This document shows, one piece after another, positions 4,449 through 64,000 of a stretch of 64,000 nucleotides of DNA (position 1 is its first letter; each line of letters begins with the position of its first letter). The notes below the pieces were generated by a model that did no database searches, was not told the origin of the DNA, and was given only the letters and a program-made list of their open reading frames with translations. The position numbers were made by a program, and so were the translations under genes. Source of the DNA: Capitulum mitella. Lineage: Eukaryota; Arthropoda; Thecostraca; Pollicipedomorpha; Pollicipedidae. The DNA is taken from NCBI GenBank assembly GCA_030062745.1, contig CP099843.1, positions 23,986,122 through 24,050,121 on the forward strand, written 5' to 3'.

Positions 4449-4450
4449 TC

Positions 4451-13583: not shown

Positions 13584-14801
13584 TTAACCCTATTCCCGGA
13601 CGGCTAGACGGTATGGCCGATTCCCGGCAGGGGGGGATTCGCCCCCCCCCCTGAGATCTCGAGAACTACTTGTCCGATTTCATCGCAACAAACGGCAATC
13701 GATTTGCCGTCACGTGAACTACATTTTTATAAAACGAAATTTTCAAAATTTTGAAATTTGTGGATACAGAGGGGCAAAAATGTCAAAATGGGGGGTACTT
13801 TTGGACTTCTTATAACTCCGTTGTTTATGGACCGATTTCGATGAAACTGGCATGAATCGAGAGAATATGGATAGGGCTTTTACCATGGGTACACAAATCT
13901 GAAATTTTGAGAAAATTCATGGGCGTTCACAGGGTTTCAAAAATAGGAGGATTAGTTTTCTAACAACTGGATGAACAAAAAAGGCAGACACCCTTTTTTG
14001 ACTTCTGCTAGTCATGTTATACTAAAGAAGTACAAATCGCATTGCAATGTTTGTATAATGTTAGCATAGGCGGTGCCAGAGACATGAAAAAGGGGGAACT
14101 GTCATGGTCACACGTTTCTCAGATCAACTTGTGACCTTTGACCTTAAATGACCTCCAGTGACCTTGGGGTCACTTGGAATGATCTCCTATGCATTTAATA
14201 TTATTTTAAACGTTTTCAATCGTTTGAATTCACTCTATTTCAAAAATTTCATTTTATGGCTATTGCGATATAGGGTACGCGCACTGACATTTTTGGTCAT
14301 AGCTCCGTGACCCGACCTGATATCAAGCTGAAACTTGGTACACAAGTAGAAAACACCCTTTTACGTCATATGTATTCCGGGTTTGGCATTTGAAAAAACG
14401 GCGCCGAAATTATTGCGAAAAAACAAATTTTAACTTTTGACCTTGACCTGACCTTTTAAAATGACCTCAGGTGAACAAAATTTTATCTGCACATGGCCCA
14501 ACTATTTAGCTATACATCCATATACAGTTTTAAGTTCTATCTTAAAAACTCTGCTTTTGGCAGACATTTTCCTTTTACCCTTAACATGGCCAAAAATGAG
14601 ATGAGGTGCCTCCCAAAAACGTTGCCTGACTCCGCCCCTGAGCAAAGAAGAATTTTGAAATTTTGTCACGGCACGTAGAAGGAATAGCTAGGAAAAGCGA
14701 TCAAGTTTCGTGAAGCTGCGTTAAAAAGCCTGGAATTGGCAAGCAAAAAACCAGAGGGGGGGCGGATTCCGCCCCCCCCCCCCTGCCGGGAATAGGGTTA
14801 A
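13584..14801 (-). mobile_element. Family A piggyBac-like MITE, copy 2 (inverted)
   Basis: TTAA occurs at 13584-13587 and 14798-14801, with TIRs starting CCCTATTCCCGG. The sequence is the reverse complement of copy 1 at 4451-5656 with few differences apart from longer G/C runs at the hairpins. No transposase frame is present, so it is non-autonomous. The close similarity of the copies implies fairly recent mobilisation. The DR1-type motif is retained on the opposite strand (TGACCTTTGACCT, 14132-14144). Confidence 0.85.
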
Positions 14802-15284
14802 AACGCAAATTAAATCGCCTGGCTAACACCACGCGTCAATGCGCACGCCACGTACAAGCGGTGCCGTTATGAAAACCTGGTTCTGAGCACTTTCGATGTG
14901 TAACGGGCCTTCAGCAAAAAGGCCGGAGTGATCAAGAGATCGCAGCGACCTGGAGAAGGCACTACGCTATTACTCAGTTTGTAACCACGTCTTTCGTTTG
15001 CACAAAGAGATCAACGACTCTGGCCCGCGGCGTGCGCGCCACGCCGCCTGGAAGGGGAACATGATCCCATTCTCGACTCCCTCACTGATTCCACTTCAAC
15101 AATGTACAGGCCATGAGCTTCTTGCAATGAAAATTGCGCCAAAGTGTAGTCCGTTCTTGTTTGCCCCATATCCACCCAAAGCACGATCGTATTTTCTCGT
15201 GGTTCGACCATAATCATTTTTCCGGTGAATCTTTCACGACTTACCTTTTTTTTACTTTTACCGTGTCCATTACCCTCGTGCGTA
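14802..15284. other. Unannotated sequence
   Basis: This is flanking sequence between the family A copy and an old family A relic. No gene was seen. Confidence 0.4.
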
Positions 15285-32495: not shown

Positions 32496-35400
32496 CTGAA
32501 ACAGGCACCGCGGCGTCACAGCCGGCTCGTGTTTGCTCCTGAATCGATACGAATCCATTCCGAGTCAATTCGGCAATTTCAAGCTTTACGGTGATCAGCA
32601 CCAGAATCGATCCAACTGGAAACTGCAGTGGATCAGAATCGGACCACAGGTTTGCTGTCATAGTCATCACTGCATCAGAATCGACTCGTAGGGCTGCTGT
32701 CAGTATCCCGGTACCTAACCTCGCACAGAGAAGGCTCAGAACGTCAGGACTCAGCGCCATGCGAACAAGGCTGCTGATCACCACCAGCGCTGCCTGCCGA
32801 CGTCACTCTGTTCCCGCCTCGTCCGCAGCGCCAGTGTCGGCGGAACACAAACCGTGTACAATAGATGACACGTCCTAACCTGACGTCACGACCGGCTCTT
32901 TCGGCAGGGCCCGGCCTCAGCACAGTTTCCGAAACACCAGACAGACGGGGCCGGCGGCGGCGCGCGGTGTCACTGACGGCCGAGCCGGCGCGTCCGCCGC
33001 CGAAACGCCAGCTGGCCGGCGGCTGCGCGTCTCGAGACGCTGACCGGCTGGGAAGCCGGCGACAACGCGAAAACGTCCGTCCCGGCGCTCCCCGGCGGCA
33101 GATGGCGGCAGCGCGCGCGGCGTGGCGTGGCAGCATGGTCGGACGCCTCGTCTCAGGGCCGAAGGGTCTCCAGTTCAAATCCGAGTGGCGTCGAAATTTC
33201 GCCCTCCCGCGACTACCGACGTTACAGACCAACCACCGGAACCCATCCGTCGAGACACAGCTCGAGGACAAATAGCCCGCCAGGGACTCACCCTCCTCCT
33301 CCGTCTGCTGCCTGGCCGGCTGCGGCTCCACCACGCGGCCGAAGAAGTCTCGAGGCGCCTGCGGCAGGAGGCGGCCATCAGTCGACGCGGCAGGCGGGCC
33401 GGGGTGCCCCGGGCAACGCCCGTCGCTCGATCGGGCGCTGCCAGGGATCGTCTCCACGCCGCCGGCCGCACGGCGGCGGCGGCGGATAGACAGACGCCGC
33501 GGCGGACGCGCCGGCGGCGGGGCGCGCCACAGCAGGAACCATCCGGCCGAACTCAGGGCTCCCATCTGTGATAGTGCGGTCAGTCGCGCGACACGATCGG
33601 ACCCGACCCTATCCACCATGATCAGATCTGGCCAGACCCTACCAAACCCGCCCGACCCCACACGACCTGATCCCGGCCAGCAGTCCCGCGTCGCTCACCG
33701 AGTCTGCGGCGGCGGCCGGTCCGGCCAGCGGCCGCGGCTTCAGCTGCTGGCGCAGGTGGTTTGGCACGGCCGCGGCCGGCTCCGGCTCCTTCTGACGCCC
33801 GCTTCCGCTTCCGCTCCGGCTCCGGCTCAGGCTCCTCAGGTCCCGGAGCCGGCTCCGGCTCCGGCCGCCGCTCCTGCTGCCGTGCTCTGATGGCCTGCTG
33901 AGTCTCGGCGCCCACCACCGCCGCCTGGAGGACGCACGGAGAAATACAGATTGTGGGCAGGGCGGACAGGTGTCACAAGTTTCCATTCAATACACATTTG
34001 GAAAATGACGTCGGAAACAGTAACGTGCAACAATCTAAACAAATACACAAATCCATTCTGAATAAAAAAACAGTTTAAGTTTCCCCACCCATACACTCAA
34101 AAACGATAAATAACGGCACCTACAGTTAACGACAAAGCTATCCTTTAAGATAGTCAATTGTGGTGAACTGCACGGCACAAGGGACGGAAGACACATGAAG
34201 CCGTTTTTCGTGCGAGGTATGTTTCGACACGCCAGAATTCGTGCCACAACACGCAGCATGTGCGGTTACAGTGGTGTTTCGAGTTTGTATTTCCGTGTTT
34301 CGAGAGCGTTAGCCTAGTGTCACATAACGACCAATCTGTCCACAGGAAATACGTATAGCTCTCCATGAAACGGTCCCAGACCAGGACGGGTTTGCAAATG
34401 GGACTTACGGCAGAACAGCAAACAAAAGAATTAATTAACATCCACTTAACTCCAGAAATACTCCACTTCAAAGCCAACAAAAAGTGAACTGAATAGTGAA
34501 GTTTAGAATGGAATGGAATAATATAGTTCTTAACCCGACCGGTCGGAAAGCAGGGGGAGCCCCCCCTAACACGAACGGTTGTAGATAAAAAAAGCAACCG
34601 TTGGAAAGCCCGTCACGAGTAGAGCCGAAACGGCCATTTTTAGTTTAGATAATATGCAAGCCAATTTACGCCCATATATGTTTTCTCATAGCCGACTGCA
34701 GAGACAGAAATGGCCGAATCTCAAGGGCGTGACTAATAACGCATAGGTAAAGGCACCAGGCACAAGTAAATGTCCGCGGATGCCGATACAGTCTAATTTC
34801 CTCAGATTTGTTCAATATATACGCCGAAACGTTGAGTTAAAGACACCGTAATTCTCCCGTCAGGCGTCACTGTGCGCCGCTGCCGTATGCGGTACCAAAT
34901 TGACAGGAACTAATTTTAGCGTTCCTTTATTTTCGCGAAAAAAGACAATCTATGTAAATTTTATTGATTTTTGTGGTTCTTGTGATGGCTTCTCATGCTT
35001 AAATTTCGGAAAAATTGATTAGTTGCCAATCTACAAAGTTGGCGGAGCTTTATTCGCGAGAGCCTGTTTATTTGCAAAATATGCTACTTTTTCAAACTTT
35101 TTCAGGTTCCTGGTATTACTTACGTCTGTGCAAGCTAGTTCTGCCATTTTCTACCCATTCTGAGTAATTTATCGTCGATTTTGACGGTGGTACATTTTGG
35201 CCCACTTCAGTTATTCGTGACCTGACCTCAGGTCAATGGCTGGAAGTCACTGATACTTTGCCCAATGACGGTAACTAGATGTCTGCTTCACTCCACACTA
35301 AAAATGTGATGAAATATTCCGTCAATTTCAGAAAAAAACGGCGATATGTCTTAAAAATGGGCTTGACCTTAGGTCAATGACCCGGAAAATTCCGAAAAAT

Positions 35401-38400
35401 CCGAGATAGCAGATTTGTTGCATCTATCACGATCACTAATCCCTGAAAGTATTATTGAGATATCTTGTTTTGCGAAAAAGTTAGAGGGAGCTAAACTTTT
35501 TTGGACTTAGGTCTGTTTGACCTGGTCTAGGTCAGGCACCTGACTTGACCTGAGGTCAAAATTTTGACACAAGACGTAAAATTGATGGAGCAAAACGTAC
35601 ACAAAGTTTTGTGACTCTGTGTTTGTTGGTTCTCTCGCAATCCCAGAAAAACCTCAGGGGGGGCAGTCAACTGCCCCCCCCAGTCGGGGACGGGTTAACA
35701 TATAAGTGGACTTGCAGATAAATAAAAAAGAAACTAAAAACACGATCAAAAGCAGATACATTCGGAAAGCCATTCGGGCAAGACAGCTTTGCTAAGCAAA
35801 CTAATATGCCCCTGGCGAAACAATGTAACTGCCAGTGTCATGCATTCCAACGCAAAAAGGCAAATGAGCACACATGAAACTCAGGCACAAGAGTCTTAGG
35901 GGGTTGTTCGATGGACAAACAATGATACACTTAGCAACAAGGTCAATGAAATGGTGGCAGAGTACACAGGATAAATATTATGCTGGCTGATCAGCCTCAA
36001 GTTCTACAACCGATCAGTATTCCCTATTATTATTCACGGGAACCTTACCTAGACTAAGCAGACTACATAGCAAGGGTAACTTCTCTAAAACAAACGGAAT
36101 GTAACCAACAATGGCCTCACGGCTCGCCCTACGGTGCTGCCATCTCCGGTCAAAAGGTACAAGTTCTAGTGTTCTAGGTGAGGCGCCCACCTCCGCGCGG
36201 CGCATCTTTTCCAGCTCGATCTCGCGGGCGATCAGCTGTTTGACGGTGTACGGGGCAGCTCTCTGCGGCCGCTGGTCGCCAAAGTACACCAGCTCCTCCA
36301 TGTTCCTGAAGCGGGGAACAGCTCCTTAAGCCAGCACTAAGTGGCGCAGAGTGGCCTGAAGCCAATGAAGGCCTCAGGCAGCACGGTTTACACAGCCTTG
36401 GTCGGCACCAAATCACCTTTATTTTGGGCGCATAGGCTGATAGTCTCCAGCAAAATGCCAAACTATTATCTCGTAACGCACAAAGTTCTTGAACTAACCA
36501 AACTGCCCCAGCGAGTGATTGAGTCGAAATCAGGCCACGTGCAGACTCACATGACTAGCATACACCGAGGCCATTACTGACGTCCCCCTGAAACCAGCCT
36601 GCAGTCCCTCCACTCTGCACAGACACCAGACAGAGACCAGACAGAGGTCGGCCGAGGTCACTCACGGCTCCAGCAGGTACTGGTACTGTCCGTCCTCGTC
36701 TCGCTGCTGCCGGTAGGTCAGGTTGTAGCCGATCATCAGCTGCAGCACCCGGCGCAGCTCGTCGGCCTCGCGCGGCGTGTGCAGCTGACTGTTGACCTGC
36801 GGCGGACCACGACGGGCGGACGGACTCAGCGGCGGGTCAACAGGCCAAGGCAGGCACGGCCAGCACCGCGGACCACCGAGCGGCACAGGTCCACGGCTGG
36901 AACTGTCAGTGTCTCTAGGGGATCACCGGCTATACAGTGGTGATGATGTGGCACAGCAAATAAATCGGAGTCTGTGGTCAGCTCAGAATTGAACTCCAGT
37001 CAAACGTGCTTCAAGAACGTTGGCAGATATTCAAAAATTTACGCTGTGACTGAAAATCGCATATCAATGTGGGCAGAGCCACACTTAACTATGCCACAGC
37101 CATACAGCCACACACACAGCCACGAAATTTGGATGTACTGAGTGGCATACCTGACATCAGACATATCTCATATAGCTGGATTATTTACATCAGGATGACA
37201 GTCTGACATTACCGACGAATCTAAAATACCTAAAAGAACTGCATTATTTGCATCAGCCAATAGTCAAACTTAATAACTAGCAAACTAATTTGGCCACTAA
37301 CTTCTGGCACACCTACATAATTCTGGGTGGCTACCTCGCCAGCAAAATCATTTCAATGCAACATCACGTGTGAACAGGTCTTCCAAAAACCGGTCTGCAT
37401 TTGAGTCAAAATGTCCGCGATCATCGTCTTAATATTCCCGCCTGCTCTACCACCCGCTCCGCCCAGATACCCCCCCCCCCCCTTCCAGTTCAGAGCCGCC
37501 ATCAAGATGCTGCGAGCAGCGCGCCGCAGCCGGCCGCCGAGGCCACCCACCGGCCTGAGGCTGGGCTGGGCCACCTGCAGCAGGTACGGCAACACGTCCA
37601 GCACCAGGCTCGAGGTGCAGTTGAAACAGCGCGTCGCCGGCGACATCTCGGACACCATCGTCGACAGCAGGTTCGTCAGTTTCGTGTGGCGCTGCTTGAT
37701 CTGTGGACGTTGACGGGCGCAAAGGTTCAGCACGTATGTTGTAAAGGCTTGTGGGTCGTTAATCATTAATCACGACTTAACATAGAGCTAGTCAAACAAG
37801 TGGATGACGATTCGGTGGCTGATTTTAACGCTCCGAAACCATTCTGGGTGGCTATCTTGCGCGTATCCCCGGAAAATCAGTCCGGTGCAATATCACGTGT
37901 TTACAGTTTTCCAAAGACAGGTGTGGATTTGAGTCAATATGCCTAGTCATCGCCATAAAGTCCCTTTTTCAGGCTCAGCGTCGAGCGCAAAAGAAAAAAA
38001 AATAATCAGAGGGCTGAAAACACTACGCAAAATGAACCATTGAGCTGTGGGGCCTTGATACCAATCCAAAAACCAATTCTAATGAAGTCCGACAAATATG
38101 TCTCCCAAGAGATACCCAGCGGCATACAGTGCGTTTCCAACAAGCCTCCATCGCGCATTAACGCACATTCCGCAAAGTTCGACGGCGGCTTGTCTTTCGA
38201 CCTGTGACCACACGCCGGCGCACGGCTCCGCGTGGCCTGAACAGGACCCGACCCCGCCCCAGATCACTGACCTCGCTCTCCGCCTGGGGAAAGACGGGCC
38301 GCGTGCGCTGCAGCGAGGCGAACAGCAGGTGGAAGGCCACGGCCGTGTACGTCTGGTACGGCAGCAGCACGTAGTTCTGCGTGTGGTGCAGTTCCGTGCT

Positions 38401-41400
38401 CAGTTCGTCACCGAAGCAGAGCCAGTCCGCGCCCAGAGTCACCTGTCGGCGACGACGAGTTAAGGGCCCCTAATCAATAACGTAAGACTAATGTAATCAA
38501 TCAAGAAGTCAATAACTCGGTAACTCAATATAAATGCCTCCATTAAAAACACAAAATTTCCGTACTTTACCAATCCTTTATAGTTTTCCATACCGTCACA
38601 TTTCTTGCCGTTAACGTAACGTTGGTCACAAACACACCTCCCCTCCCGTTATGCAATGTATGAAATACCCCTTAGTTTTCAAGTCATCTGGCATATGAGG
38701 CAAATGGAACCCGACATGTCTGACGCACATGTTTGGCGCACATCAACAGACAAAATGAATGAAAACAAGACAAAACAAAAACCAAGTGTAACAAAACAAA
38801 ATAAAAGTACCGGAAATGCCACGGACTAGTCTCGCAACACATACGTCAAGACTTTATAGTGACAATGATTAAAAAAAAACATAAAACACACCAAGCTGAT
38901 TCCAATAAAAACATGCATAATGAATGAAACACACCGACTGGAAAGTTGAGTCCTTGATCTTGGCGCCGAGGTAGTTTTCAAACATGCCCTGCGCCATTTT
39001 GTCGTACTCTCCGCAGGAGGTGATCACGCCGACCATCGTGCGGAACCTGGAGCCAGGGTTCACTCGTGACCGCCACGGCAGCCGCCGCCGCCAGGCCACG
39101 GCTGACGGGTCAGGAGGGTCGCAGCTTCGAACGGACACCAGTCGCCGCGAACACTGCAGAGTTCTCGGTCCGGGGAATGTTCAGGAGCTGGGGAGCAGCG
39201 TCTCGGCGGACGGCGTGGACAGGCCGGGCGATGGATATGACCGTTGTCAGCGCTGGTCTAGACTACACCTACTGCTAGCTTAATGCGCGTTGTTTCTGAA
39301 TACCGCAACGCTTATAAAGAAAAAAGGAGACTAGGATTATTCCAGCCTGCACACAACTGAGATAACATTGCCGCTCCCCGGGCACCAACGCCAACATAAG
39401 AGCACTATTCGGTCCTGGATAAAGGTTTCAGGGCACAAAAGCACATCAACTCAGTTGAAAACAGACTGGACAAACGATGCGTGCGTCAGCTCCTGGCCGG
39501 TCAGGGCCAGGGACGTGTGCCCGTGGGCGCCGCCTCCGCCGCCGCCGGTCAGCGGCGCTCACCTCTCAGCCAGAGTTGTACCGTCACCGGACATCCTGGG
39601 CGGCCCGCCGTCCTCGGCCACCAGGTGCCTCCTGTCGGGCGGAGACAGGGCGTCACCGGCCGGCACCGCAGGCCTCCCGCTGCGGGACGCAAACCACACC
39701 GGGAGACTTATCCCGAACACCGCGGGTCTGGCAGCAGAAACTGCCGACCACTTACAGCGGGATAACGGCAGCAATGAACCACTAACGAAACATGGCAGAA
39801 AAAGAAGAATATCAAACACTACTGGCCTGGCAACAGAAACACTAGCGATAAACAACACTTCTCTGACACGCTTTTGCCGATTTTAACAGATCGGAACCGA
39901 GTCAGAGGAGGCACTTCCACCGTGGCAAAGATCAGTCCTGACGAAATAATCCGCACACATCCACACACGGCTTACGCACCGCTTCGGCCTGGGTAAGTTG
40001 AAGATCTCCTGCCAGGCGGCGAACAGCCCCTTGTGGTGGTCCTTCTCGCCGACCGTGGACGTTTGCACCTGCTCCAGAGTCAGTCGGTCTTGCCGACTCC
40101 TGTCGCCACACAGGGTGGTTACAGTTCGGCCGGGAGCGGGTCAGGCGGAATCACTGAGGAGTCCACGACAGCATTAAGATAGGACAACTGAACCGGAAAC
40201 ATCCCGGTCACAGCCGAGTAGACACCAGCTACCTATGGGGAATAAAATAAATATGAACAGAACATGGGCCTCAAGTTGCATTCATGGCCTGAAAAGGACA
40301 CAAAACAAGAGTAGCGTAACTGAAGACGTCATCACTGGCATGCAGAGCCGACGACCAAGCATACAATGACGCAGCCGTCGTCCTGTTCCATCGGTATCAC
40401 TGACAACGCGAGTTCGCCTTAGCGACAATACCTGACAAACTGCAGGAAGCTGAGGCAGGACCTGATGTCGTTCCGCGTCTTCTCGCAGAGGCAGAGCAGG
40501 GCGCCCAGGTCGGTTCGAAGACCGTTACGCCGGCAAATGTCAGCCAGGCGGCCGGCAAGTCTGTGGATGACAAAACCTGAGCACACGCCTCGTAGAGCAT
40601 TTTCCGTCCCATCTACGCCTTTGTCTTTCCTAACGCTGACCAGTGCGAAATAAACACGCAAGGATAGCCCCCAGTCCGCTCGCAGTCAACAAAACCATTT
40701 CGCTCAAATCAGGGATCTGTATCGGCGCGCAGTCACTGATTTTCAACACGACATCACAACACGACTGCACTTCCGTTAGCTCCACCAAACGCCGGCCACA
40801 CCCGCTGTCCGCCCGACAGCGTCACCGGCAGAAACCCGACCCGTCAGGAGGGGGCCCGTCCACGCCCGGAGCACGCCTGCTGCTCACCTCTCGCCGGCCG
40901 TCGGCGGGAACGTCATGACCAGCGCCATCTGGCGGAGCGGCCGCAGCGCCGGCACGTACGGGTCGTTGCAGATGCAGATCACCGGCCGGTGGATCGGCGC
41001 CGGCCCGGCCTTCTTCCGGCGGCCGCGGCCGGCCCCCGCCGACTCCGGCCCGGACAGGGCCGACACCAGCAGGCTGATGGAGGGCTGAGGGGTACCGGAG
41101 GACGGGTCACTGTACACGGGGCCGACACCAGCAGGCTGATGGAGGGCTGAGGGGTACCGGAGGACGGGTCACTGCACACAGAGCCGACACCAGCAGGCTG
41201 ATGGAGGGCTGAGGGGTACCGGAGGACGGGTCACTGTACACAGGGCCGACACCAGCAGGCTGATGGAGGGCTGAGGGGTACCGGAGGACGGGTCACTGCA
41301 CACAGAGCCGACACCAGCAGGCTGATGGAGGGCTGAGGGGTACCGGAGGACGGATCACTGTACACAGGGCCGACACCAGCAGGCTGATGGAGGGCTGAGG

Positions 41401-44400
41401 GGTACCGGAGGACGGGTCACCGCACAGAGGGCCGACACCAGCAGGCTGATGGAGGGCTGAGGGGTACCGGAGGACGGGTCACTGCACACGGGGCCGACAC
41501 CAGCAGGCTGATGGAGGGCTGAGGGGTACCGGAGGACGGGTCACTGTACACAGGGCCGACACCAGCAGGCTGATGGAGGGCTGAGGGGTACCGGAGGACG
41601 GATCACCGCACACAGGGCCGACACCAGCAGGCTGATGGAGGGCTGAGGGGTACCGGAGGACGGGTCACTGTACACAGGGCCGACACCAGCAGGCTGATGG
41701 AGGGCTGAGGGGTACCGGAGGACGGATCACCGCACACAGGGCCGACACCAGCAGGCTGATGGAGGGCTGAGGGGTACCGGAGGACGGGTCACTGCACACA
41801 GGGCCGACACCAGCAGGCTGATGGAGGGCTGAGGGGTACCGGAGGACGGGTCACTGTACACAGGGCCGACACCAGCAGGCTGATGGAGGGCTGAGGGGTA
41901 CCGGAGGACGGGTCACTGTACACAGGGCCGACACCAGCAGGCTGATGGAGGGCTGAGGGGTACCGGAGGACGGGTCACTGCACACAGGGCCGACACCAGC
42001 AGGCTGATGGAGGGATGGGGGGGGGGGGTAACGGAGGACGGAGTTACCGTACACAGGGCAGACACCAGCAGGCTGATGGAGGGCTGAGGGGTACCGGAGG
42101 ACGGGTCACTGCACACGGGGCCGACACTAGCAGGCTGATCGAGGGCTGAGGGGTACCGGAGGACGGGTCACTGCACACAGGGCCGACACCAGCAGGCTGA
42201 TGGAGGGCTGAGAGGTACCGGAGGACGGATCACCGCACACAGGGCCGACACCAGCAGGCTGATGGAGGGCTGAGGGGTACCGGAGGACGGGTCACCGCAC
42301 AGAGGGCCGACACCAGCAGGCTGATGGAGGGCTGAGGGGTACCGGAGGACGGATCACCGCACACAGGGCCGACACCAGCAGGCTGATGGAGGGCTGAGGG
42401 GTACCGGAGGACGGGTCACTGCACACAGGGCCGACACCAGCAGGCTGATGGAAGGCTGAGGGGTACCGGAGGACGGGTCACCGCACAGAGGGCCGACACC
42501 AGCAGGCTGATGGAAGGCTGAGGGGTACCGGAGAACGGGGTCACCGCACAGAGGGCCGACACCAGCAGGCTGATGGAAGGCTGAGGGGTAACGGAGGACG
42601 GAGTTAACACAACCACACAGAGAGAAGTCGCCACACAGACGTAGGAAAGGGTCACAACAGGCAGATCGACACCTGCACAGAATACTCAGTGACGACTGAA
42701 ATCGTGTTTCGCGTGCTAACAGCCAGGGAGGACCTCATTGAGCACGCAACATAATGAAATGACCTGCATAAATAAGTACGTGTCACATCTCATGATGGAC
42801 GCCCAGCTCGCTTCACGAACGGCCTGGCTGGATCAAAGGCCCGCGACAGCGACAGCAACTTCAGCAACGTCTAGAGGGCTGTATCTAAAGCAAACACGTG
42901 TAGAACACAGCCCTCGCAATCCCACTGGTCCTACATGTCGTTCTGTCCATCGGGCGGTCTAAAATCGTATACAGCTGCCGCCTCACCGTCCGTCCACGTC
43001 ACGGCCCGCCCACCTCACAGCCGTCCACCTCACAGTCGTCCACCTCGCAGCCCGTGCACCTCACGGCCCGTCCATCTCACAGTCCGTCCATCTCGCGGCC
43101 GGTCCACCTCGGCGCTCCGTCTCGACTCACGGCCGGGGCGCCGTCGATTTCGTCGATGACCAGGCAGTTGGGGCGCGGGTCCCTGCCGAGCATGGGCCGC
43201 ATCTGGGTGGCCGTCTCCAGCGCCGTGCCGAACGCCGCCACGCTCCTGTCGTCCGACGCGTTCAGCTCCATCACGTTGTAGCCTGCGGACGTACGCGATG
43301 TCTCCGAGACGTCATCAACACGAAAAGCAGCCGCATTAACTGCACGACTGCCGCGTCGTTTGGCGTACAACGCAACGATGGCGATGTCAACGAACCGTCC
43401 TGATTGCACCGAATATCTACCTCAATGCATACTGCAACACAAATTTGAACAAAATCGTTCTAGCGTGGCAAACTAAGCAGTTTACATCGCCAACAGCGTT
43501 CGGGCTCCTTCTCCATCTCCGCCATTTCAGTGCCGCCATTGCGATGGATCACCTCGGCTGAGACCACAGCCAGATACCAACCTGCGTGGCAAACCCTCCC
43601 ACGCCGCTAGGCTCGACCTGCAGAGGACACCCACACAGAGCGTCACCCGATCCCAGCGCGTCGGCGGGCGACAGTGGCGGCGGCGGCGGCGGCCGACTCA
43701 CCGGCGTGCTTGGCCAACACGTGAGCCAGTGTGGTCTTGCCGAGTCCGGGCGGGCCGCACAGCAGCGCCACCTTCTGGCGCGGCCGGCCGCCGGCGTCCA
43801 GCTCGTCCACCACCTCGAACGCCGGCTTCCGCACGAATGGCCGGACTGCGGCGGCGCCAGGCCGGGTCAGGTCAGGTCAGGTCAGCCCGCCGCCGGCTGC
43901 GGTCTGCCGGGTCGCCGCGGGCTAGATATGTCGCGGGTCCCACGGCGGGGCAGCGCGTAACCAGCAAGCAGCAGCACACAGGATACAGGGAACATGGAGA
44001 GGAACTGCCTTCAGGAACATTTGGTTCCTGTTATCTTATCACCGATCCAAGGAGAAAGAATATTAAAAACGAGATAACGTCTGGTAAGCTGGAGTGGGTG
44101 GCCGGGCCTCATGGACAAGGGACACGTATCTCAGTATAGCTATGAACTGCTGAAAAATCTGAATTATTTAGTAATACATAAGTTGTTGTTGTTTCAGTTG
44201 AATGACAGTCATCTGAGTGGTTTTGAAGAGAACAGCATTTATCGAGCAATGGTGGAAGCAGCTTTCTACAAGCATTTCGCCAGGTTCCTACAAGCATCGA
44301 TGTTTAACAACGACTTTGACAATGATCCGTCCGAACATAATATGGCCAAATTCATTTAATTATGAAAGTTATGCTTACAGCCAGCCAATGTGTTACGGAA

Positions 44401-47400
44401 GCAGCCATGGTGCACTTCCAGTGACATCTGAATCTTCCTTAGGAAAAAATACAACACCAAAATCATACCAAACAGTATAAAATTTAATCGTCCACAAAAT
44501 GGATAAGTCCATGGTGCGTGCGTGCGACTACTTACATTTGCCATCTGGCTTTTTCTCTTCCTTGGGTTTGATGACGACATCTCGACCAAAAACAGCCTTG
44601 TCCCAGAGCTTCAGCCAGTGTAAAAGGCCACGGTTGATTGTCTGTAACAGGATGATTGGTCTTGTACGCCCAATGCCTAATGACCCACAACTTACTCGAC
44701 TGGGTTCGACCAATGCGAATACTGAAAAATCATGTGGAACTGCACATTGCGATCTTCATATTTCACATGTAACAAGCATAACAGACACATCACAAACAAA
44801 GCCGTAATGCAGTAACACACAATGAACCGCACCGCTTGTCCTTACTGTGAGCCGACGCACTCCGAAAGAACCGAAAAACTTGCAGGCGCACCAAGTCGGA
44901 AACCCAGATAAACAGTGAGCGCTCGTCGTGAAACGTTCTCCCACCAGACCCTGACCCGACCACAGTCTGCGAGTCACCACACAGCGCCCTGAGCCGGTAA
45001 ACCTCCAGAGAGCGCCGGCCGCTCGGCTCCGCCCCCGGCACCGTCCCGGCCGGCCGCGGCGCCCCGGAGCGGCGGCGCCGGACCGGCCTCACCTCCTCGC
45101 TGAGCAGCTCCACGTAGCTGCGCGGCTGGAAGCGCTCGACCCAGAGCGCGCTGCGCTCCGCCTCGTCCTCCGACTCGAGCCCGGAGTCGGCCGGCTCGCC
45201 CCAGCTGGCCAGCTTGTCCAGCACGGCCTGCTCCTGCCGCAGCGCCAGGCGACGATCCTCCTGCCGCGCCGTTGCAATCGACGTCACAGGCGAGCGCCAC
45301 AGTCCAACGTCACAGGCCAACGTCATTGGCTGGCGTCACAAGTCAACGTCATAGCCGGGCGTCACAGGCCTACGTCAAAGGCTGGCGTCACAACTCAACG
45401 TCACGGGCGGGCGTCGCAGGACAACGTCACCGGCTGGCGTCACAAGTCAATGTCACAGGCAGGCGTCACAGGACAACGTCACAAGCGGGCGTCACGGGCG
45501 GGCGTCGCAACAGTCACACCGGCCACGACGGTCATGGCGGTCCCAGTGGCCACAGAAGTGGTCCCAACAGTGGTAACAACAGCAAGCGTAAGGTCACAAC
45601 AACGGCCACAGAGGCGGCCACCGAGGTCACAGTTACAGCCACAACCTTTTTCGCACGGCATCACCATCCAAACAACACATTCCGCGATGCGTGAACAAGG
45701 CACGCACATCCCCGCCGCCCCGTTTCCCGCCTACCGTGGAGAGCCAGCGCTGACGCCCCAGCGGCCGTCCCGCAGCACTCACCAGCTGCCGCGCCTCCTC
45801 CTTCAGCTCGGCCAGCGGCCGGGACAGCAGAGCGGGCCGCTCCAGCAGCGGGTCACGCACCGGCTGCGACGCCGGGCAGCGGACATTACACGCCGGACAC
45901 TGGCAGCACGGCTGGTGTCCCACTCAGGGGTCACTACACACCAACCGCACACGGCTGGTGTCGTACTCAGGAGACCACGTATCACTGCGCGCATCATCAG
46001 AGTAACATGGAAAATGACGCCAAAAACAGCTGAAACGTAACGGGCAAGTAGTGCATTACCATTCTGCAAGATATTATGCAACGTCCATTTGACTCTCCCC
46101 TACTAACAAATAACGCAAAATGGTCTACTCAGCATGATATTCACATGAGGTGGGCATTCTGAGAGTACCTGAGGTCGGCTGTTACGCAGGCGCAGATAGA
46201 AACGTCTTCCGTCCGAGTAGGTCAGCTTCTGGAAGTGGCCATCCAGCGGCACGCGCGTGGAAATACGATGCCGATCCGAGTCGGCCAGCCCACTGACAAC
46301 GGACCAGTGTCGGTTACGCTCTGCGATCCGTCCTGTCTCGGTACAGTATAGGCAGGCACTCTCGGCGGCCACTATGGCTCCTCAATGGCAGTAACCCCTG
46401 GGCGAAGAGAGGATGGGTTGGTCGGCGTCGAGCCGGACAAAAAGGGATCTGGGCCGGGTTCGGCGCCGCCCCGTGAATTAACAGCAGGGTCTATAAAGGC
46501 GAACCCAACGTGAGTGAGCCAAGTCTGACACTGCCAGAATAACAAACATCAACACCAGCATGGAGAAAACAGGCAATATTGCTGGGAAAATAAAACATCA
46601 GTCACTCAAACAAATAAAATCAAATCAAACAATGCCAACGAAACTGCACAAAAGTTAATTTGCCAAGCAGAATTCCTTTGTTTTTGACACCAAGACACAT
46701 CTAATCCAAGAGCTGTAAGTTTCCAAGATTCTTTATGTGTTCAAAAATGTTTCAAGTGTTCCTCAACCACAGCATGTTATGGACCCAGATTACATTCCTC
46801 CTTATTTTACATTACACCAACACTGCAACCCATCTTGACCTGCACAAAATGACCTGGCACAGCTGCCTAAACTGAAACAGGTGCACTCAACCATCAAAAA
46901 GTGTAATGTATGTTAACTTCCCTCAATCATCAGAAATGCAAAAAACTTGCCTTACTGCTGAAGCACCAACAACAAACTGCTCCATTTTTGGTCCTCCACG
47001 ACTGCTTCTGATCTTTTCCATTATTGAGTCAACATGCAATTCATCTTTTGTTTTTGTTGCAGATGTCTTTTGCCTCTTGGGGGCTGGAACATAGGGACTG
47101 CTAGGTAAAGAACTGCCTGGCCAGTACCAGTTACATCCTTGAAACTGTATTAAATAGGCTACTAAAAGCAACACAAAAACCCAAACCATTTTTGATGTCT
47201 ATGAAAATATGTGACTGGTTTTGTTCTAGGAACCAAACTGCATACAGCACGGGCATATGAACCTTCATTAACTTTGATGCAGATGAGCCAAAGAGCATGT
47301 TGCAATAACTGGACTTCATAGAAAGATCTGAGACTTTTGTACAGTACTTACCAGTCTCTTCTCTTGGGACTGAATGGTCATTCAAATCCCAAAAGATGCT

Positions 47401-47963
47401 GTCCAGAAGCCTCTTGTTGGTTTGTCCTTGAGATGCATGTTCACTGGCATTTAGAGTTGCACTTTCAAATGGTTTTGCATCACTTAGTGCTGGTGGCACT
47501 GTAGTTGCAGCAGCCTCCTCAACCTCATCAATATCTGATGGAATGTCTAAAACAAGAAAAACCTCAAACATGAGACAGGGTACATGACAATTAGTAGATT
47601 GGCTACCTTAAAGTTGAAGTAAGGTTACCAGGATAATACTAACACTGGGCACAGGTAGTAATTGCAGTCAGGTGTTTACAATCTCTTCCATCATTTTGGT
47701 ACCTTGAGAAGCATACATGCTTATTCTATGGAAAAAGACAATGAGAATTTCATGATCACCTAATGCATTACATGTTCCATTAATTCCACTTCCGTCACAG
47801 CAATATTCTGCATTTCAAGATTTCATTTCCCTGTTTCACTTTGTCTGGCTATTTCCAGTAAGCTGTTACCTGTATCATCTATAACCAGGTTTTTCTCCTC
47901 TTCCAATTCATCCAAAAGATCCTCTATGTCTTCATATCTAGGAATATCAGGTGGCTCATCCAT
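32386..47963 (-). CDS. CHTF18: CHTF18 (CTF18), Ctf18-RFC clamp loader large subunit: whole gene, 21 coding exons
   Basis: CHTF18 replaces RFC1 in an alternative replication factor C complex with RFC2-5, DSCC1 and CHTF8. It loads PCNA at forks, works with polymerase epsilon and supports sister-chromatid cohesion, acting in the nucleus. The chain of exons gives about 960 residues, close to the human length (975). In order it shows an acidic N-terminus, a WVERFQPRSYVELLS block, Walker A GPPGLGKTTLAHVLAKHAG, NASDDRS, Walker B CLVIDEIDGAP, sensor 1 ICICND and the CEKTRNDIR block. These are followed by the collar helices, the QLIAREIELEKMRRAE helix, RDFFGRVV and the conserved C-terminus WYHFKEGYNNAVRRTV. 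Junction phases agree throughout except at exon 4 and exon 19. Intron 18 holds a family B element and intron 9 holds splice-site arrays. Confidence in the identity is very high; exon borders are inferred from GT-AG sites and family similarity. Confidence 0.97.
33292..33358 (-). CDS. CHTF18: CHTF18 exon 20
   Basis: Encodes APRDFFGRVVEPQPARQQTE then EE; phase 0 to 1, acceptor CTGCCGCAG, donor G|GTGAGT. DFFGRVV is an invariant motif near the C-terminus of CHTF18. Confidence 0.93.
33699..33924 (-). CDS. CHTF18: CHTF18 exon 19 (frame inconsistent)
   Basis: The acceptor is GTCCTCCAG and the donor TCG|GTGAGC. From the acceptor the in-phase frame reads AAVVGAETQQAIRARQQERR then Glu/Pro-rich repeats and KRKRASEG. 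The phase needed at the donor instead gives AVPNHLRQQLKPRPLAGP, which resembles human RPAPRNHEQRLEH. The exon is 226 bases, so the two frames disagree by one base within a GGAGCC/GAGCCG repeat tract. An assembly or allelic indel in this tract, or an unrecognised splice, is likely. Confidence 0.65.
34530..35698 (+). mobile_element. Family B piggyBac-like MITE, copy 1 (CHTF18 intron 18)
   Basis: TTAA is present at 34530-34533 and 35695-35698. The right end reads inward as CCCGTCCCCGACTGGG then a hairpin (G-run, CAGT, two bases, ACTG, C-run, 35657-35680). The left end begins CCCGACCGGTCGG. There is no transposase frame. It is nearly identical to the inverted copy 2 at 49260-50488. The interior carries ER1 and IR1 arrangements of AGGTCA (35223-35235; 35364-35383). 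Confidence 0.85.
36191..36305 (-). CDS. CHTF18: CHTF18 exon 18
   Basis: Encodes NMEELVYFGDQRPQRAAPYT then VKQLIAREIELEKMRRAE; phase 2 to 0, donor GAG|GTGGGC. TKQLIAREIEVEKMRRAE is the human equivalent of the last block. Confidence 0.96.
36666..36796 (-). CDS. CHTF18: CHTF18 exon 17
   Basis: Encodes VNSQLHTPREADELRRVLQL then MIGYNLTYRQQRDEDGQYQY and LLEP; phase 0 to 2. LTYRQ...DGQY.Y.LEP is highly conserved in CHTF18. Confidence 0.96.
37551..37700 (-). CDS. CHTF18: CHTF18 exon 16
   Basis: 50 codons, phase 0 to 0. It encodes IKQRHTKLTNLLSTMVSEMS then SSLVLDVLPYLLQVAQPSLR. It matches the human collar-region helices ending LAPKLRP. Donor CCG|GTGGGT. Confidence 0.93.
38272..38442 (-). CDS. CHTF18: CHTF18 exon 15
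   Basis: 57 codons, phase 0 to 0. It encodes VTLGADWLCFGDELSTELHH, then YQTYTAVAFHLLFASLQR and PVFPQAESE. It corresponds to human VALDWLAFDDLL and VAFHVLFASS. Confidence 0.95.
38935..39046 (-). CDS. CHTF18: CHTF18 exon 14
   Basis: Encodes RFRTMVGVITSCGEYDKMAQ then GMFENYLGAKIKDSTFQS. It matches the human segment RFYRVLHAAASAGEHEKVVQ followed by GLFDNFL. Phase 2 to 0, donor TCG|GTGTGT. Confidence 0.92.
39563..39631 (-). CDS. CHTF18: CHTF18 exon 13 (short)
   Basis: 69 bases, from CCGCCCGACAG to AG|GTGAGC, phase 2 to 2. It encodes RHLVAEDGGPPRMSGDGTTL then AER. It fills the variable region before the RF...V helix of the family and restores phase with both neighbours. Confidence 0.75.
39980..40099 (-). 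CDS. CHTF18: CHTF18 exon 12
   Basis: Encodes RSRQDRLTLEQVQTSTVGEK, then DHHKGLFAAWQEIFNLPRPK, phase 2 to 2. KGLF..WQEIF.LPR is characteristic of CHTF18. Confidence 0.93.
40432..40560 (-). CDS. CHTF18: CHTF18 exon 11
   Basis: 43 codons from CATCCACAG to AG|GTATTG. It encodes RLAGRLADICRRNGL, then ALLCLCEKTRNDIRSCLSFL and QFV. CEKT.NDIR is the conserved AAA+ lid segment with the sensor 2 arginine. Confidence 0.95.
40888..41084 (-). CDS. CHTF18: CHTF18 exon 10, sensor 1
   Basis: Encodes PSISLLVSALSGPESAGAGR, a basic linker, then HRPVICICNDPYVPALRPL and MTFPPTAGER; phase 0 to 2, donor AG|GTGAGC. ICICND is the AAA+ sensor 1 block. The exon's first 30 bases and acceptor are the source of the adjacent minisatellite. 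Confidence 0.95.
41063..42603 (-). repeat. 62-bp minisatellite carrying the exon 10 splice acceptor
   Basis: About 25 units of 62 bp with few differences between them. In transcript sense each unit holds CCTCCGGTACCCCTCAG, a 3' splice site, followed by the first about 30 bases of exon 10 (encoding PSISLLVSAL). The innermost unit (acceptor at 41085-41086) is the one continuous with the real exon. Variable positions are the TGTACACA/TGCACACA/CGCACAGA segment. One unit near 42010 is expanded by a G-run. Sixty-two is not a multiple of three, and reading through the array meets TGA (CAG TGA) within three units. Confidence 0.95.
42984..43118 (-). repeat. Array of donor-like motifs at the 5' end of CHTF18 intron 9
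   Basis: In transcript sense the unit is about 16-17 bp, close to GCCGTGAGGTGGACGG, repeated about nine times directly after the true donor. Five copies keep GTGAGG or GTGAGA after CC, CT or CG, so they resemble 5' splice sites. Other copies are altered to GCGAG or GTGACG. Confidence 0.8.
43131..43282 (-). CDS. CHTF18: CHTF18 exon 9, Walker B
   Basis: Encodes GYNVMELNASDDRSVAAF, then ETATQMRPMLGRDPRPN and CLVIDEIDGAPA. DEID is the Walker B/DEXX box. The donor GCC|GTGAGT (phase 0) is followed at once by an array of similar donor motifs (42984-43118). Confidence 0.95.
43702..43845 (-). CDS. CHTF18: CHTF18 exon 8, Walker A
   Basis: Encodes RPFVRKPAFEVVDELDAGGR, then PRQKVALLCGPPGLGKTTL and AHVLAKHA. 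GPPGLGKTT is the ATP-binding P-loop. The donor G|GTGAGT splits the Gly codon, phase 1. Confidence 0.95.
44536..44641 (-). CDS. CHTF18: CHTF18 exon 7
   Basis: The acceptor is GTTACAG and the donor T|GTAAGT. It encodes TINRGLLHWLKLWDKAVFGR then DVVIKPKEEKKPDGK. LL.WLKLWD..VFG is diagnostic of CHTF18. Confidence 0.92.
45093..45260 (-). CDS. CHTF18: CHTF18 exon 6
   Basis: 56 codons, phase 0 to 0, from GCGGCAG to GAG|GTGAGG. It encodes EDRRLALRQEQAVLDKLASW, an acidic linker, then LWVERFQPRSYVELLSEE. The last block is the RFC-family entry motif (W.E.F.P..Y.ELLS.). Confidence 0.9.
45285..45508. repeat. 26-bp minisatellite in CHTF18 intron 5
   Basis: Seven or more units of the form GGCGTCACAAGTCAACGTCA plus six variable bases, themselves made of two 13-bp halves. 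The array starts only about 25 bp outside the acceptor of exon 6. A looser repeat of GGCCACAG/GTGGT words follows to about 45640. Confidence 0.85.
45783..45863 (-). CDS. CHTF18: CHTF18 exon 5
   Basis: 27 codons, phase 0 to 0, with a GGCGTCGCAG acceptor and CTG|GTGAGT donor. It encodes PVRDPLLERPALLSRPLAEL then KEEARQL, matching the helix before the RFC-box domain. Confidence 0.75.
46169..46332 (-). CDS. CHTF18: CHTF18 exon 4 (5' border uncertain)
   Basis: The 3' half encodes RVPLDGHFQKLTYSDGRRFY followed by LRLRNSRPQ and a CAG|GTACTC donor. It corresponds to the conserved LEDYV..TSTEGVRAYLVLR region of human CHTF18. The start at 46332 uses a GAGACAG acceptor, but that gives phase 1 while exon 3 ends in phase 0. 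The true start may differ by a few bases, or a small exon may be missing. Confidence 0.65.
46956..47137 (-). CDS. CHTF18: CHTF18 exon 3
   Basis: Encodes SSPYVPAPKRQKTSATK and HVDSIMEKIRSSRGGPK, ending GASA|GTAAGG in phase 0. The basic KRQK stretch is at the place of the family's N-terminal basic (possible nuclear-localisation) region. The acceptor is the less usual TTTCAAG, required by phase. Confidence 0.7.
47352..47546 (-). CDS. CHTF18: CHTF18 exon 2
   Basis: The acceptor is TTGTTTTAG and the donor G|GTAAGT. It encodes IPSDIDEVEEAAATTV and on to WDLNDHSVPREET, phases 1 to 1. It is low-complexity acidic N-terminal sequence that is poorly conserved in the family. It lies in the CpG-depleted block. 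Confidence 0.75.
47870..47963 (-). CDS. CHTF18: CHTF18 exon 1 (start codon)
   Basis: It begins MDEPPDIPRYEDIEDLLDEL and continues EEEKNLVIDDT, then the donor G|GTAACA in phase 1. The acidic N-terminus resembles that of other CHTF18 proteins. This ATG is chosen because the translation matches from here and joins exon 2 in phase. Confidence 0.8.
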
Positions 47964-48364
47964 GGCAGTTTTTTTCTGAAAATAAAGGCAAGGCATTCTG
48001 AAATGTCTCCATATCTGCATACCTGACAAAAACATTTGCATTAGATGGCATTAAGACCTGAATTTAATGAATTGTTTTAGGAATAATGGCTAGTTAAGAG
48101 ACTGCTGAATATTCTGTTTTGTATGTTGACAAGCTAGTCAGCCAAAAATCAACTGAAATTTGTGCTGAATTTTATACAAAAAAAAATTGATGATATAAGC
48201 TTGTAAAAGCACAAAGCACTAAACATGACAAGAAAGACAACAGACACAGAAAACAGGCTGCATGCCAAAGCACACCACAAAAATCCAGTTGGCATTACCT
48301 CATCTGCAAAAATGACAAACATGGAGATGGCCAGTAATAATAAGGCTGCAATCAGGGTGTCAAT

Positions 48365-48530
48365 TTGTATTCTTTTGAGGACCCTGGCCCACCCAGTGTT
48401 GATTTGGACCCACCCAATGTCGGTTTGGACCCACCCAATATTTTCTGCCAGTTTTAAAGGTAGATGTATAATCATAATGAAAATAATGGCTGCAACAGAT
48501 AAGAGGTACATGGAAAATAAAGAATGAAGT
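48365..48530 (-). repeat. Dispersed repeat, copy 2 (partner 1060-1235)
   Basis: The minus strand contains CTTTAAAACTGGCAGAAAATATTGGG. It is then followed by three tandem about 23-bp units with (A/C)TTGGGTGGGTCCAAA. It matches copy 1 across about 150 bases. A 132-codon frame on this strand has several hydrophobic runs, but since the core is repetitive it is treated as element-derived. Confidence 0.5.
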
Positions 48531-48760
48531 CCAGAGCAGTTACCCATTTTTTGGTAAATAGCAACAAAAAAGCTTGCAAAATTGTTGGTATATTAATGCA
48601 GGCTCAGTCTGTTGAGGAACCCATGTCTGGGGAAGTCAGGTTGCCAGGCCCTTGGCTTGGCCCCTCAATCATTTACAGAAATGATGCCCCTGGTTGCAAT
48701 CAACTAAGTGCCCTGGATATACTGAAAACTGATCTACCAACTGGGGATGCAAACACAAAA

Positions 48761-48784
48761 TGTTTGTTTGTTTGTTTGTTTGTT
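48761..48784. repeat. (TGTT)n microsatellite
   Basis: Six TGTT units. Confidence 0.9.
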
Positions 48785-49259
48785 GAGCTAGGATGCACAG
48801 CCTTTTGGCCTCAGGCGACCGTTTATTGAGTCAACCCTCATATTTGGTCAGGTATCAGTCAGTCGTCTGACAAAAAACGGCTTCAGAAGACTGCAGAACA
48901 TATATGCATGAAATGGCCATAAAGGCAAAAAACTGATGGGTATTATCTACTTACATCTGGACACTTGCTTCTCTCTTTCCAGTAATGATATTCGAACACG
49001 TCAAATGAGGTAGCAGTTACTGATGACCCAAACCTTGAAATTCCGTCATAGTCACCTTACGTTACAATCGGCAGACCGACACAACCGTATCAAAATAAGA
49101 TCACTGTGCACACACGACCAGAAACGCAAAAATCGCGCCAGAACTACACATGAAGGTATTCCTTTCCGTTCCCCAAAAGACCTTCGCAGTTTCATAGAAC
49201 TGCTGTTAGCATTTTCAGTTGTCATCAAGCATGCACGAATTCCCTCTTGTTTAAGAAAA

Positions 49260-50488
49260 TTAACCCGTCCCCGACTGGGGGGGGGCAGTTGACTGCCCCC
49301 CCCTGAGGTTTTTCTGGGATTGCGAGAGAACCAACAAACACAGAGTCACAAAACTTTGTATACCTTTTTCTCCATCAATTTTACGTCTCGTGTCAAAATT
49401 TTGACCCCAGGTCAGGTCAGGTGCCTGACCTAGACCAGGTCAAACAGACCTAAGTCCAAAAAAGTTTAGCGCCCTCTAACTTTTTCGCAAAACAAGATAT
49501 CTCAATAATACTTTCAGGGATTAGTGATCGTGATAGATGCAACAAATCTGCTATCTCGGATTTTTCGGAATTTTCCGGGTCATTGACCTAAGGTCAAGTC
49601 CATTTTTAAGACATATCGCCGTTTTTTCTGAAATTGACGGAATATTTCATCACATTTTTAGTGTGGAGTGAAGCAGACATCTAGTTACCGTCATTGGCCA
49701 AAGTATCAGTGACTTCCAGCCATTGACCTGAGGTCAGGTCACGAATAACTGAAGTGGGCCAAAATGTACCACCGTCAAAATCGACGATGAATTACTCAGA
49801 ATGGGTAGAAAATGGCAGAACTAGCTTGCACAGACGTAAGTAATACCAGGAACCTCAAAAAAGTTTGAAAAAGTAGCATGTTTTGGAAATAAACAGGCTC
49901 TCGCGAATAAAGCTCCGCCAACTTTGTAGATTGACAACTAATCAATTTTTCCAAAATTTAAGCATGAAAAACCATCACAAGAACCATAAAGATCAATAAA
50001 ATTTACATAGATTGTCTTTTTTCGCAAAAATAAAGGAACGCTAAAATTAGTTCCCGTCAATTTGGAACCGCATACGGCAGCGGCGCACAGTGACGCCTGA
50101 CGGGAGAATTACGGTGTCTTTAACTCAACGTTTCGGCGCATATATTGAACAAATCTTAGGAAATTGGACGTGTATCGGCATCCGCGGACATTTACTTGTG
50201 CGCTGGTGCCTTTACCTATGCGTTATTAGTCACAGCCCTTGAGATTCAGGCCATTTCTCGGTCTCATGCAGTCGGCTATGAGAAAACATATATAGGGCGT
50301 AAATTGGCTTACATATTATCTAAAACTAAAAATGAGACCAGTTTCGAGCTCTACTCGTGACGGGCTTTCCAACGGTATGCTTATTTTTATCGTGCGACCA
50401 ACCGTTCGTGAGTTAGAGGGGGGGGCAGTCAACTGCCCCCCCCCAGTCGACGGTGTTCGGGACGGACCGACGGTCGTGCGCGGGTTAA
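49260..50488 (-). mobile_element. Family B piggyBac-like MITE, copy 2 (inverted)
   Basis: TTAA is present at 49260-49263 and 50485-50488. The left end CCCGTCCCCGACTGGG plus G/C-run hairpin (49277-49303) is the inverted right end of copy 1. The other end has its own hairpin (50418-50442) followed by a GACCGACGGTCGTGCGCGGG terminus. No coding frame. It lies about 1.3 kb upstream of CHTF18 exon 1. Confidence 0.85.
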
Positions 50489-52089: not shown

Positions 52090-52990
52090 ATTTTAGGGCA
52101 AAAGTTTGTCTTGCAGAAGTTCGTCGGACAAAGTTTCATCGGACTTAAGCTCATCGGATAAAAGTTCGTCGTGCAAAAGTTCGTCGTGAAAAGGTTCGTC
52201 TGAGCAAAAGTTTGTCGAGGACAAAAGTCTGTCTAGTACAAACGTTCGTCTTGCAGAAGTTCGTCGGTGGAAAAAGTTTGTCTAAGGCAAATATTCGTGT
52301 GGGACAATTAAGTTCTTCTCGCAGAGGTTCGTCTAGGACAAAAGTTCGCATAAGGCAAAAGTTCGCATGGGGTAAAGTTTGTCTCGGAAAGGAATTCCGC
52401 CATGCAGAAGTTTGTTTAGAACAAGAGTTCGTCAAGGGCAAAAGTTCGTCTAGGACAAGTTTGTCTCGCTAATGGAAAAGGTTCGTTCTGCAAAAAGTTC
52501 GTGTGGAAAGGTTCGTAGGAAAAAGGTTCGTAAGGGAAAACGTTCGCAAGGGAAAGGGTTCGTCGCCAATGGTTGGTAAACTTCAGGTTCGTATCGGAAA
52601 AGATTAGCATCGGAAAAGGAACGGACCTAAAACAGTAACCCAACATAATCCAACCTTACCTAACCTAATCTTTTGCCCTAGACGAACTTTTGTCCAGACG
52701 AACCGTCATCCCAAACGAATTTCTGCGAGACGAACCTCTGTCCTGGACGAACTCTTGTCCTAGACGAACTTATGCCCTATACGAAGTTTTCTGGACGAAC
52801 TTTTGTCCCAGACAGGCTTTTGTCCTATACGAACTTTTGTCTTAGGCTAATTTTTGTCCTGGGGGAACTTTGTGCATACGAACTTTCGTGAGAAGAATTG
52901 TGCCATATACGATCTTTTGTCCGGCGAGGTTTTGTTCTTACGAACTATGACCCGACGAACTTTTGCTCTACAAACTTCATTCCGACAAAC
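52090..52990. repeat. Fold-back array of 17-bp units
   Basis: From 52090 to about 52570 the plus strand holds about 27 diverged units close to CTAGGACAAAAGTTCGT. From about 52675 to 52990 it holds about 19 units of the complement, ACGAACTTTTGTCCTAG. The centre (52571-52674) includes CAACCTTACCTAACCTAATC. The whole is a long inverted minisatellite, as in fold-back transposons. There is no coding frame, because a 17-bp unit shifts frame each repeat. Confidence 0.85.
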
Positions 52991-63834: not shown

Positions 63835-64000
63835 TGTGAGCCCACACCCCACTGGCAGTTGTCGCCGGTGACGCTCGACTTGGGGGGGTTCGGCCGCCTC
63901 TCCTCCTACTCACGAACGTATGGTCGCACGAGAAAAAATAAGCACACCGTTGGAAAGCTCGTGACAAGTAGAGCTCGAAGCTAGTCCCATTTTTAGTTTT
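63835..64000 (+). mobile_element. Family B element, left end only (cut by window)
   Basis: CTCACGAACGTATGGTCGCA, AATAAGCACACCGTTGGAAA and GCTCGTGACAAGTAGAGCTC-like blocks match the left interior of copies 1 and 3 in order. The terminal TTAA is not clear here, and the element continues past the edge. Confidence 0.65.

Follow-up and report, generated by a model that had tools for sequence, protein, structure and literature searches.

In a 64,000-nucleotide (nt) stretch of the Capitulum mitella genome (contig CP099843.1; "the window" below is this whole stretch), the predicted 3' splice site of intron 9 of CHTF18 lies in a 62-bp tandem array that presents 24 nearly identical copies of the acceptor, 23 outer ones and the innermost. 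The array likely arose through repeated duplication of one real splice junction. Every outer acceptor of the CTCAG type leads to a premature stop, and the innermost leaves the frame of the gene open. We consider the chances somewhat better than even that the innermost acceptor predominates, with some leakage to the outer ones.

The CHTF18 gene and the predicted junction

The core of the gene could be modelled by joining exons on the basis of homology and alignment, the N-terminal exons not all being exact; exon numbers follow the preliminary description of this DNA. The features concerned are as follows.

37551 to 45260, minus strand: model of the CHTF18 core, a single open frame of 506 codons in 11 exons (joined exons, homology, alignment)
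43131 to 43282, minus strand: exon 9, 152 nt, phase 0, ending ...GACGGCGCCCCGGCC before the donor GTGAGT (gene model)
41085 to 43130, minus strand: intron 9, which is 2046 nt long in the full-length model and would be 550 nt, by coordinate subtraction, with the outermost acceptor
40888 to 41084, minus strand: exon 10, 197 nt with the innermost acceptor (junction aligned to Pollicipes and Amphibalanus with no gap)

The 506-amino-acid (aa) product of the 11 modelled exons matched human CHTF18 chains (8umt_A, E 7.9e-135, query 20-506) over the AAA+ and the following region, as befits a CHTF18 clamp-loader gene. Among the matches listed the best relatives were barnacles, Amphibalanus amphitrite with 77% identity over the core and Pollicipes pollicipes with a protein of 918 aa; in the alignment, core identity was 81% to P. 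pollicipes and 78% to two A. amphitrite records. A CHTF18 pseudogene was rejected for the core, given the 11 exons in one open frame and the high conservation.

The exon 9/10 junction is a prediction from protein homology. Across it the product reads VIDEIDGAPA/PSISLLVSAL, which aligns without a gap to Pollicipes (GAPAPSINLLVTAL) and Amphibalanus (GAPAPAINHLVAAL), and two shrimps are also gapless at this point (GAPAPSINWLV); the splice phase is fixed by this gapless alignment to barnacles and shrimps. The preliminary description is borne out both in its naming of the gene as CHTF18 and in the phase of the splice. No intron among the ten in the model is shorter than 327 nt, the nine other than intron 9 measuring 327-690 nt, and the 11 exons are 69-197 nt; this is an architecture that suits exon definition.

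The array and its unit

The features of the array that matter for the argument are these.

41054 to 42601, minus strand: 62-bp tandem array with the intron 9/exon 10 junction (Tandem Repeats Finder (TRF) and unit listing)
42518 to 42580, minus strand: outermost unit, 63 nt, stop-free in the CHTF18 frame over 21 codons (unit listing)
42015 to 42083, minus strand: degenerate 69-nt unit that keeps the ancestral-like AACTCCGTCCTCCGTTACCCC and has lost CTCAG beside a poly-C run (unit listing)

TRF placed the array at 41,054-42,601 with a period of 62, 24.8 copies, 94% matches and a score of 2716, which is far beyond chance, and these limits nearly coincide with those first given for the minisatellite (41063 to 42603). 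Read on the minus strand, the common unit is CCCTCCATCAGCCTGCTGGTGTCGGCCCTGT, exon-derived and 31 nt long, followed by the intron-derived GTGCAGTGACCCGTCCTCCGGTACCCCTCAG; it therefore holds the predicted intron end (GTGAC, a C-rich tract and CTCAG) together with the opening 31 bases of exon 10, in keeping with the earlier estimate of an acceptor and about 30 exon bases per unit. The exon-derived start occurs in 25 copies and is preceded by CTCAG in 24 of them; before the remaining copy (42,014) a poly-C run stands instead. The earlier figure of 25 copies accordingly holds for exon starts, with 24.8 by TRF, and falls by one for CTCAG, and the claim that about 25 nearly identical acceptors precede the true one is right as to likeness and has to be lowered to 23. 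Of the 24 units from one acceptor to the next, 22 are 62 nt long, and the other two measure 63 and 69 nt. The 22 units of 62 nt differ from their consensus by a mean of about 2% (32 differences).

No 13-mer of the common unit was found outside the array on either strand of the whole window, and an exact 27-mer was absent from viral_contigs, a collection that may leave out the source genome; the array was on these grounds rejected as a dispersed element. A coding repeat was rejected for the 62-nt form, as a TGA appears in the second unit, and recursive splicing was unsupported, the common unit having no AGGT on reading.

The reading frame behind each acceptor

Three acceptors stand out when the frame is read.

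41085 to 41086, minus strand: AG of the innermost acceptor, the sole CTCAG with an open frame (frame reading)
41136 to 41137, minus strand: AG of ATCAG in the penultimate unit, exon start 41135, adding 51 nt in frame (PAGVGPVYSDPSSGTPQ) (frame reading)
42581 to 42582, minus strand: AG of the outermost acceptor, giving an exon of 1693 nt and a stop after 54 codons (frame reading)

Read in phase from exon 9, all 23 outer CTCAG acceptors met a stop after 26-56 codons, so the earlier statement that a TGA is reached within three units is true of each. The TGA of the repeat forms part of its GTGAC branch-point-like motif. From the innermost acceptor (exon start 41,084) the frame runs on without a stop across the downstream exons of the model. 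Between 41,060 and 42,620 the minus strand carries 65 AGs, 24 in CTCAG and 41 in other contexts, and only two of the 65 give an open frame, the second being the ATCAG (exon start 41,135), alone among the 41, which adds 17 residues in frame. The expectation of full-length protein from the innermost acceptor alone is thus upheld among CTCAG sites and has to be widened to take in the ATCAG. Exon 10 would be 197 nt from the innermost acceptor, 259, 321 and 383 nt from the next ones outward and 1693 nt from the outermost; for four of the 23 outer acceptors the position of the stop was measured, and it precedes the end of exon 10 by 91-1528 nt. In vertebrates nonsense decay follows a rule of 50-55 nt, and by that rule decay of the outer-acceptor transcripts would be expected.

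The choice between acceptors

Of the 23 outer acceptors, 19 match the innermost exactly over positions -20 to +3, and 12 do so over -25 to +27. Local sequence therefore cannot single the innermost out, and since most of the acceptors are indistinguishable by their own sequence the choice presumably depends on context. We propose that exon definition, which pairs a 3' site with the donor of exon 10, would be likely to favour the innermost acceptor, and that some transcripts would leak to outer acceptors, meet a stop and be degraded. A transcriptome study reported that under exon definition the sites closest to each other across the exon are favoured (PMC9225289). The array would then be tolerated, for the most part, as a passenger whose modest cost increases with copy number, and on the sequence it is likely that copy number would affect the amount of normal CHTF18 protein.

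Several observations weigh against predominance of the innermost acceptor.

42603 to 42607, minus strand: TTAAC, branch-point-like, before the outermost acceptor and probably ancestral (motif inspection, unit alignment)

This motif is better than the GTGAC found at the other intact acceptors inspected (motifs were inspected in eight of 25 copies, the degenerate one having GTAAC). The outermost acceptor is also richer in pyrimidines (0.81 as against 0.75) and is the first to be transcribed, and the same study reported an overall preference for the upstream one of competing 3' sites, which was significantly reduced, though not said to be reversed, when both introns were long (PMC9225289). Predicted accessibility was 0.07 at the innermost acceptor and 0.005-0.12 at the other 23 intact copies. 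A weight matrix gave the innermost and most other array acceptors a score of -5.36, lower than any of its ten leave-one-out scores (-2.09 to 9.24), and 75.5% of 384 AGs reached that value or more; the matrix was home-made from the ten other CHTF18 acceptors and is crude and unreliable, so that we give it little weight. By pyrimidine content the innermost acceptor is tied for the top of eleven CHTF18 acceptors. Finally, in the human ABCA7 repeat discussed below, single-unit retention stayed the same whatever the length of the array, which opposes a simple effect of copy number (PMC5954066).

One explanation that would draw on these points is that splicing is first come, first served, the outermost acceptor taking most transcripts so that nearly all messenger RNA (mRNA) would carry a premature stop and the allele would be near null. 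The TTAAC, the higher pyrimidine content and the reported upstream preference (PMC9225289) would all fit, as would an intron 9 of 550 nt, similar to the nine others (327-690 nt). However, the exon so formed would be 1693 nt, and 11 exons in one open frame with 78-81% identity to barnacle orthologues are unlike a long-standing null; we therefore think this explanation unlikely, if the foremost of those to be weighed against ours.

A structure in the RNA that hides the outer acceptors was considered and rejected, as the array folds no better than shuffled sequence (z of +0.65 for a single unit, +0.28 for a dimer, -0.73 for the inner edge and +0.40 for the outer edge) and the innermost acceptor is not singled out in accessibility.

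Another possibility is that the repeated acceptors engage splicing factors unproductively and so lead to retention of intron 9, as with the decoy exons of human OGT and SF3B1. Intronic decoy exons do promote intron retention (PMC12017769), and donor-like motifs are present at the 5' end of intron 9 within a second repeat.

42981 to 43110, minus strand: 16-bp tandem repeat starting 20 nt inside the intron 9 donor, with 5 GTGAG donor-like copies (TRF and motif count)

Five GTGAG were seen against a mean of 1.3 under a Markov-1 model (P = 0.007, post hoc), although any motif within a repeat is multiplied by it. Decoy exons, however, carry both a 3' and a 5' site, and the GTs within the 62-bp unit look weak by eye, so that retention driven by decoys seems to us rather improbable. 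We continue to prefer the reading in which the innermost acceptor predominates and some transcripts leak to the outer ones.

Origin and evolution of the array

The two flanks of the array probably record its history: the outer one (TTAAC...CTCAG) would be where the intron originally ended, and the inner one would belong to the original exon. The outer flank carries TTAACTCCGTCCTCCGTTACCCCTCAG, and the internal degenerate copy has AACTCCGTCCTCCGTTACCCC in common with it, as such a history would lead one to expect. A 63-nt founder unit may have lost one base before most of the amplification, the 62-nt form coming later; as the outermost 63-nt unit is stop-free in frame, duplication of such a founder would be frame-neutral.

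The homogeneity of the units had been taken to imply recent or ongoing expansion. A divergence of about 2% makes this plausible, but adjacent units resemble each other no more closely than units far apart (mean of 3.61 differences at lag 1 and 3.0-4.0 at lags 2-12). The array thus has the look of one that has been shuffled, and not just newly expanded, which suggests unequal exchange or conversion. An array of this kind could also be an error of assembly, with an inflated copy number or fewer units at the true locus, and long near-identical arrays are indeed error-prone. Against this, distinct variants are interleaved, one degenerate unit has a private poly-C, the lengths are 62, 63 and 69 nt, and 1.5 kb fits ordinary long reads; we regard such an error as quite improbable.

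Nothing in the array pointed to selection on the decoy acceptors in either direction. One copy in 25 has lost its AG, where about one loss would be expected (hand arithmetic from 32 differences in 22 units), and the final 16 nt of the unit showed no shortage of variable sites (P = 0.20); with AG loss as expected and the acceptor end no better conserved, no selection on the decoys is visible. These two results also count against a variable-number tandem repeat (VNTR) that differs in copy number from one individual to another and is under selection as a means of setting the dosage of CHTF18. Such adaptive tuning, in line with the preliminary description, in which copy number tunes splicing or nonsense decay, could find a precedent in ABCA7, where a splice-site VNTR is linked to isoform use and skipping of exon 19 rises with length, yet retention of one unit there is constant across lengths (PMC5954066), and we hold it to be very unlikely. 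It could further be imagined that expansion provides more decoy acceptors, hence less CHTF18 and more instability of the array in a runaway loop, given that yeast Ctf18-RFC protects CAG repeats from changes in length (review, PMC3310812); to this self-propelling minisatellite we attach hardly any probability.

Comparison with known systems

The closest known system is the VNTR in intron 18 of human ABCA7, which has a 25-bp unit and 23.7 copies in the reference and in which the first two bases of the unit are the exon 18 donor; retention of one unit shifts the frame and is unchanged with length, and exon 19 skipping increases with length (PMC5954066). The CHTF18 array is its acceptor-side counterpart. 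In both, as far as the ABCA7 passages go, about 24 units, each holding a splice site, form an intronic tandem array that touches an exon boundary. In both, too, splicing at a copy further into the intron shifts the frame and leads to a premature stop, in CHTF18 by prediction. The two differ in that the ABCA7 array opens at the donor GT and repeats a donor, whereas the 62-bp CHTF18 unit carries an acceptor; the ABCA7 passages show no repeated exon sequence and the CHTF18 unit has 31 exon bases; and length variation and isoforms have been measured in ABCA7, the CHTF18 array being known from the sequence of one assembly.

Many identical acceptors in tandem are also present in the W-repeat exons of Epstein-Barr virus, where the repeated exons are spliced into mRNA; unlike these, the CHTF18 units have no convincing donor by eye. 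In UBC, a tandem repeat likewise has a splice site at every unit, and the choice among sites is reported to be stochastic, but these are AGGT sites that serve as donor or acceptor in 228-nt coding units that are frame-neutral (PMC10809524). The CHTF18 acceptors read CTCAG/CC in 24 of 24, and the 62-nt unit breaks the frame (22 of 24 units, the others being one of 63 and one of 69 nt). Intron gain through tandem genomic duplication (e.g. PMC4974935) similarly multiplies splice signals within a gene, although the CHTF18 array adds no intron and instead lengthens an existing one with surplus acceptors. Among the literature matches listed, none was an acceptor-bearing minisatellite of a cellular gene.

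Surroundings in the window

The 16-bp repeat at the start of intron 9 (42981-43110) lines up roughly, as judged by eye, with the true donor, with which it has GGCCGTGAG in common. A further tandem repeat lies close to a CHTF18 exon.

45281 to 45506, minus strand: 13/26-bp tandem repeat ending 20 nt before the CHTF18 acceptor of the exon at 45,093-45,260, with 17 TGAC (TRF and motif count)

Placement of both the 16-bp and the 13-bp repeat this near an exon had a probability of 0.010 under random placement (post hoc). We also note, by eye, four tandem CTGAC, which are branch-point-like, on the minus strand at 43866-43885; a CHTF18 acceptor follows some 20 nt downstream, at 43,845. The G+C content per 2 kb within CHTF18 passes from 0.56-0.64 (40001-46000) to 0.41-0.43 (46001-50000), the 3' exons being rich in G+C and the 5' exons in A+T.

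A dispersed repeat family is present at 34560-35698, 49260-50488, 56886-58118 and 63875-64000, with members of up to about 1.2 kb that are 81-95% alike and occur in both orientations; one copy lies within the CHTF18 3' region, and that at 49,260-50,488 has inverted G-run and C-run stretches at its ends. A pair of 1.2-kb repeats (4443-5656 and 13584-14809) is in inverted orientation and 92% alike. A large imperfect palindrome of about 1 kb at 53764-54724 matches its own reverse complement at 65%, and 52098-52886 is dense in degenerate CAAAAGTTCGTC repeats in one half and in their complement in the other. No Rfam match at gathering score and no tRNA by ARAGORN were found, and none of ten open frames, taken from 40 of at least 130 aa, matched Pfam at 0.01.

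Significance

The gene that hosts the array is tied to the fidelity of the replication fork, and disruption of mouse Chtf18 has been reported to disturb meiotic recombination (PMC3486840). The array widens the class of splice-site VNTRs from donors, as in ABCA7, to acceptors. Competition between 3' sites of equal strength, in which the first to be transcribed may be set against the nearest to the donor, has classically been studied with engineered duplications. With two dozen near-identical natural acceptors in one gene, of which one or two are productive, CHTF18 of C. mitella provides a test case for the choice of the 3' splice site.

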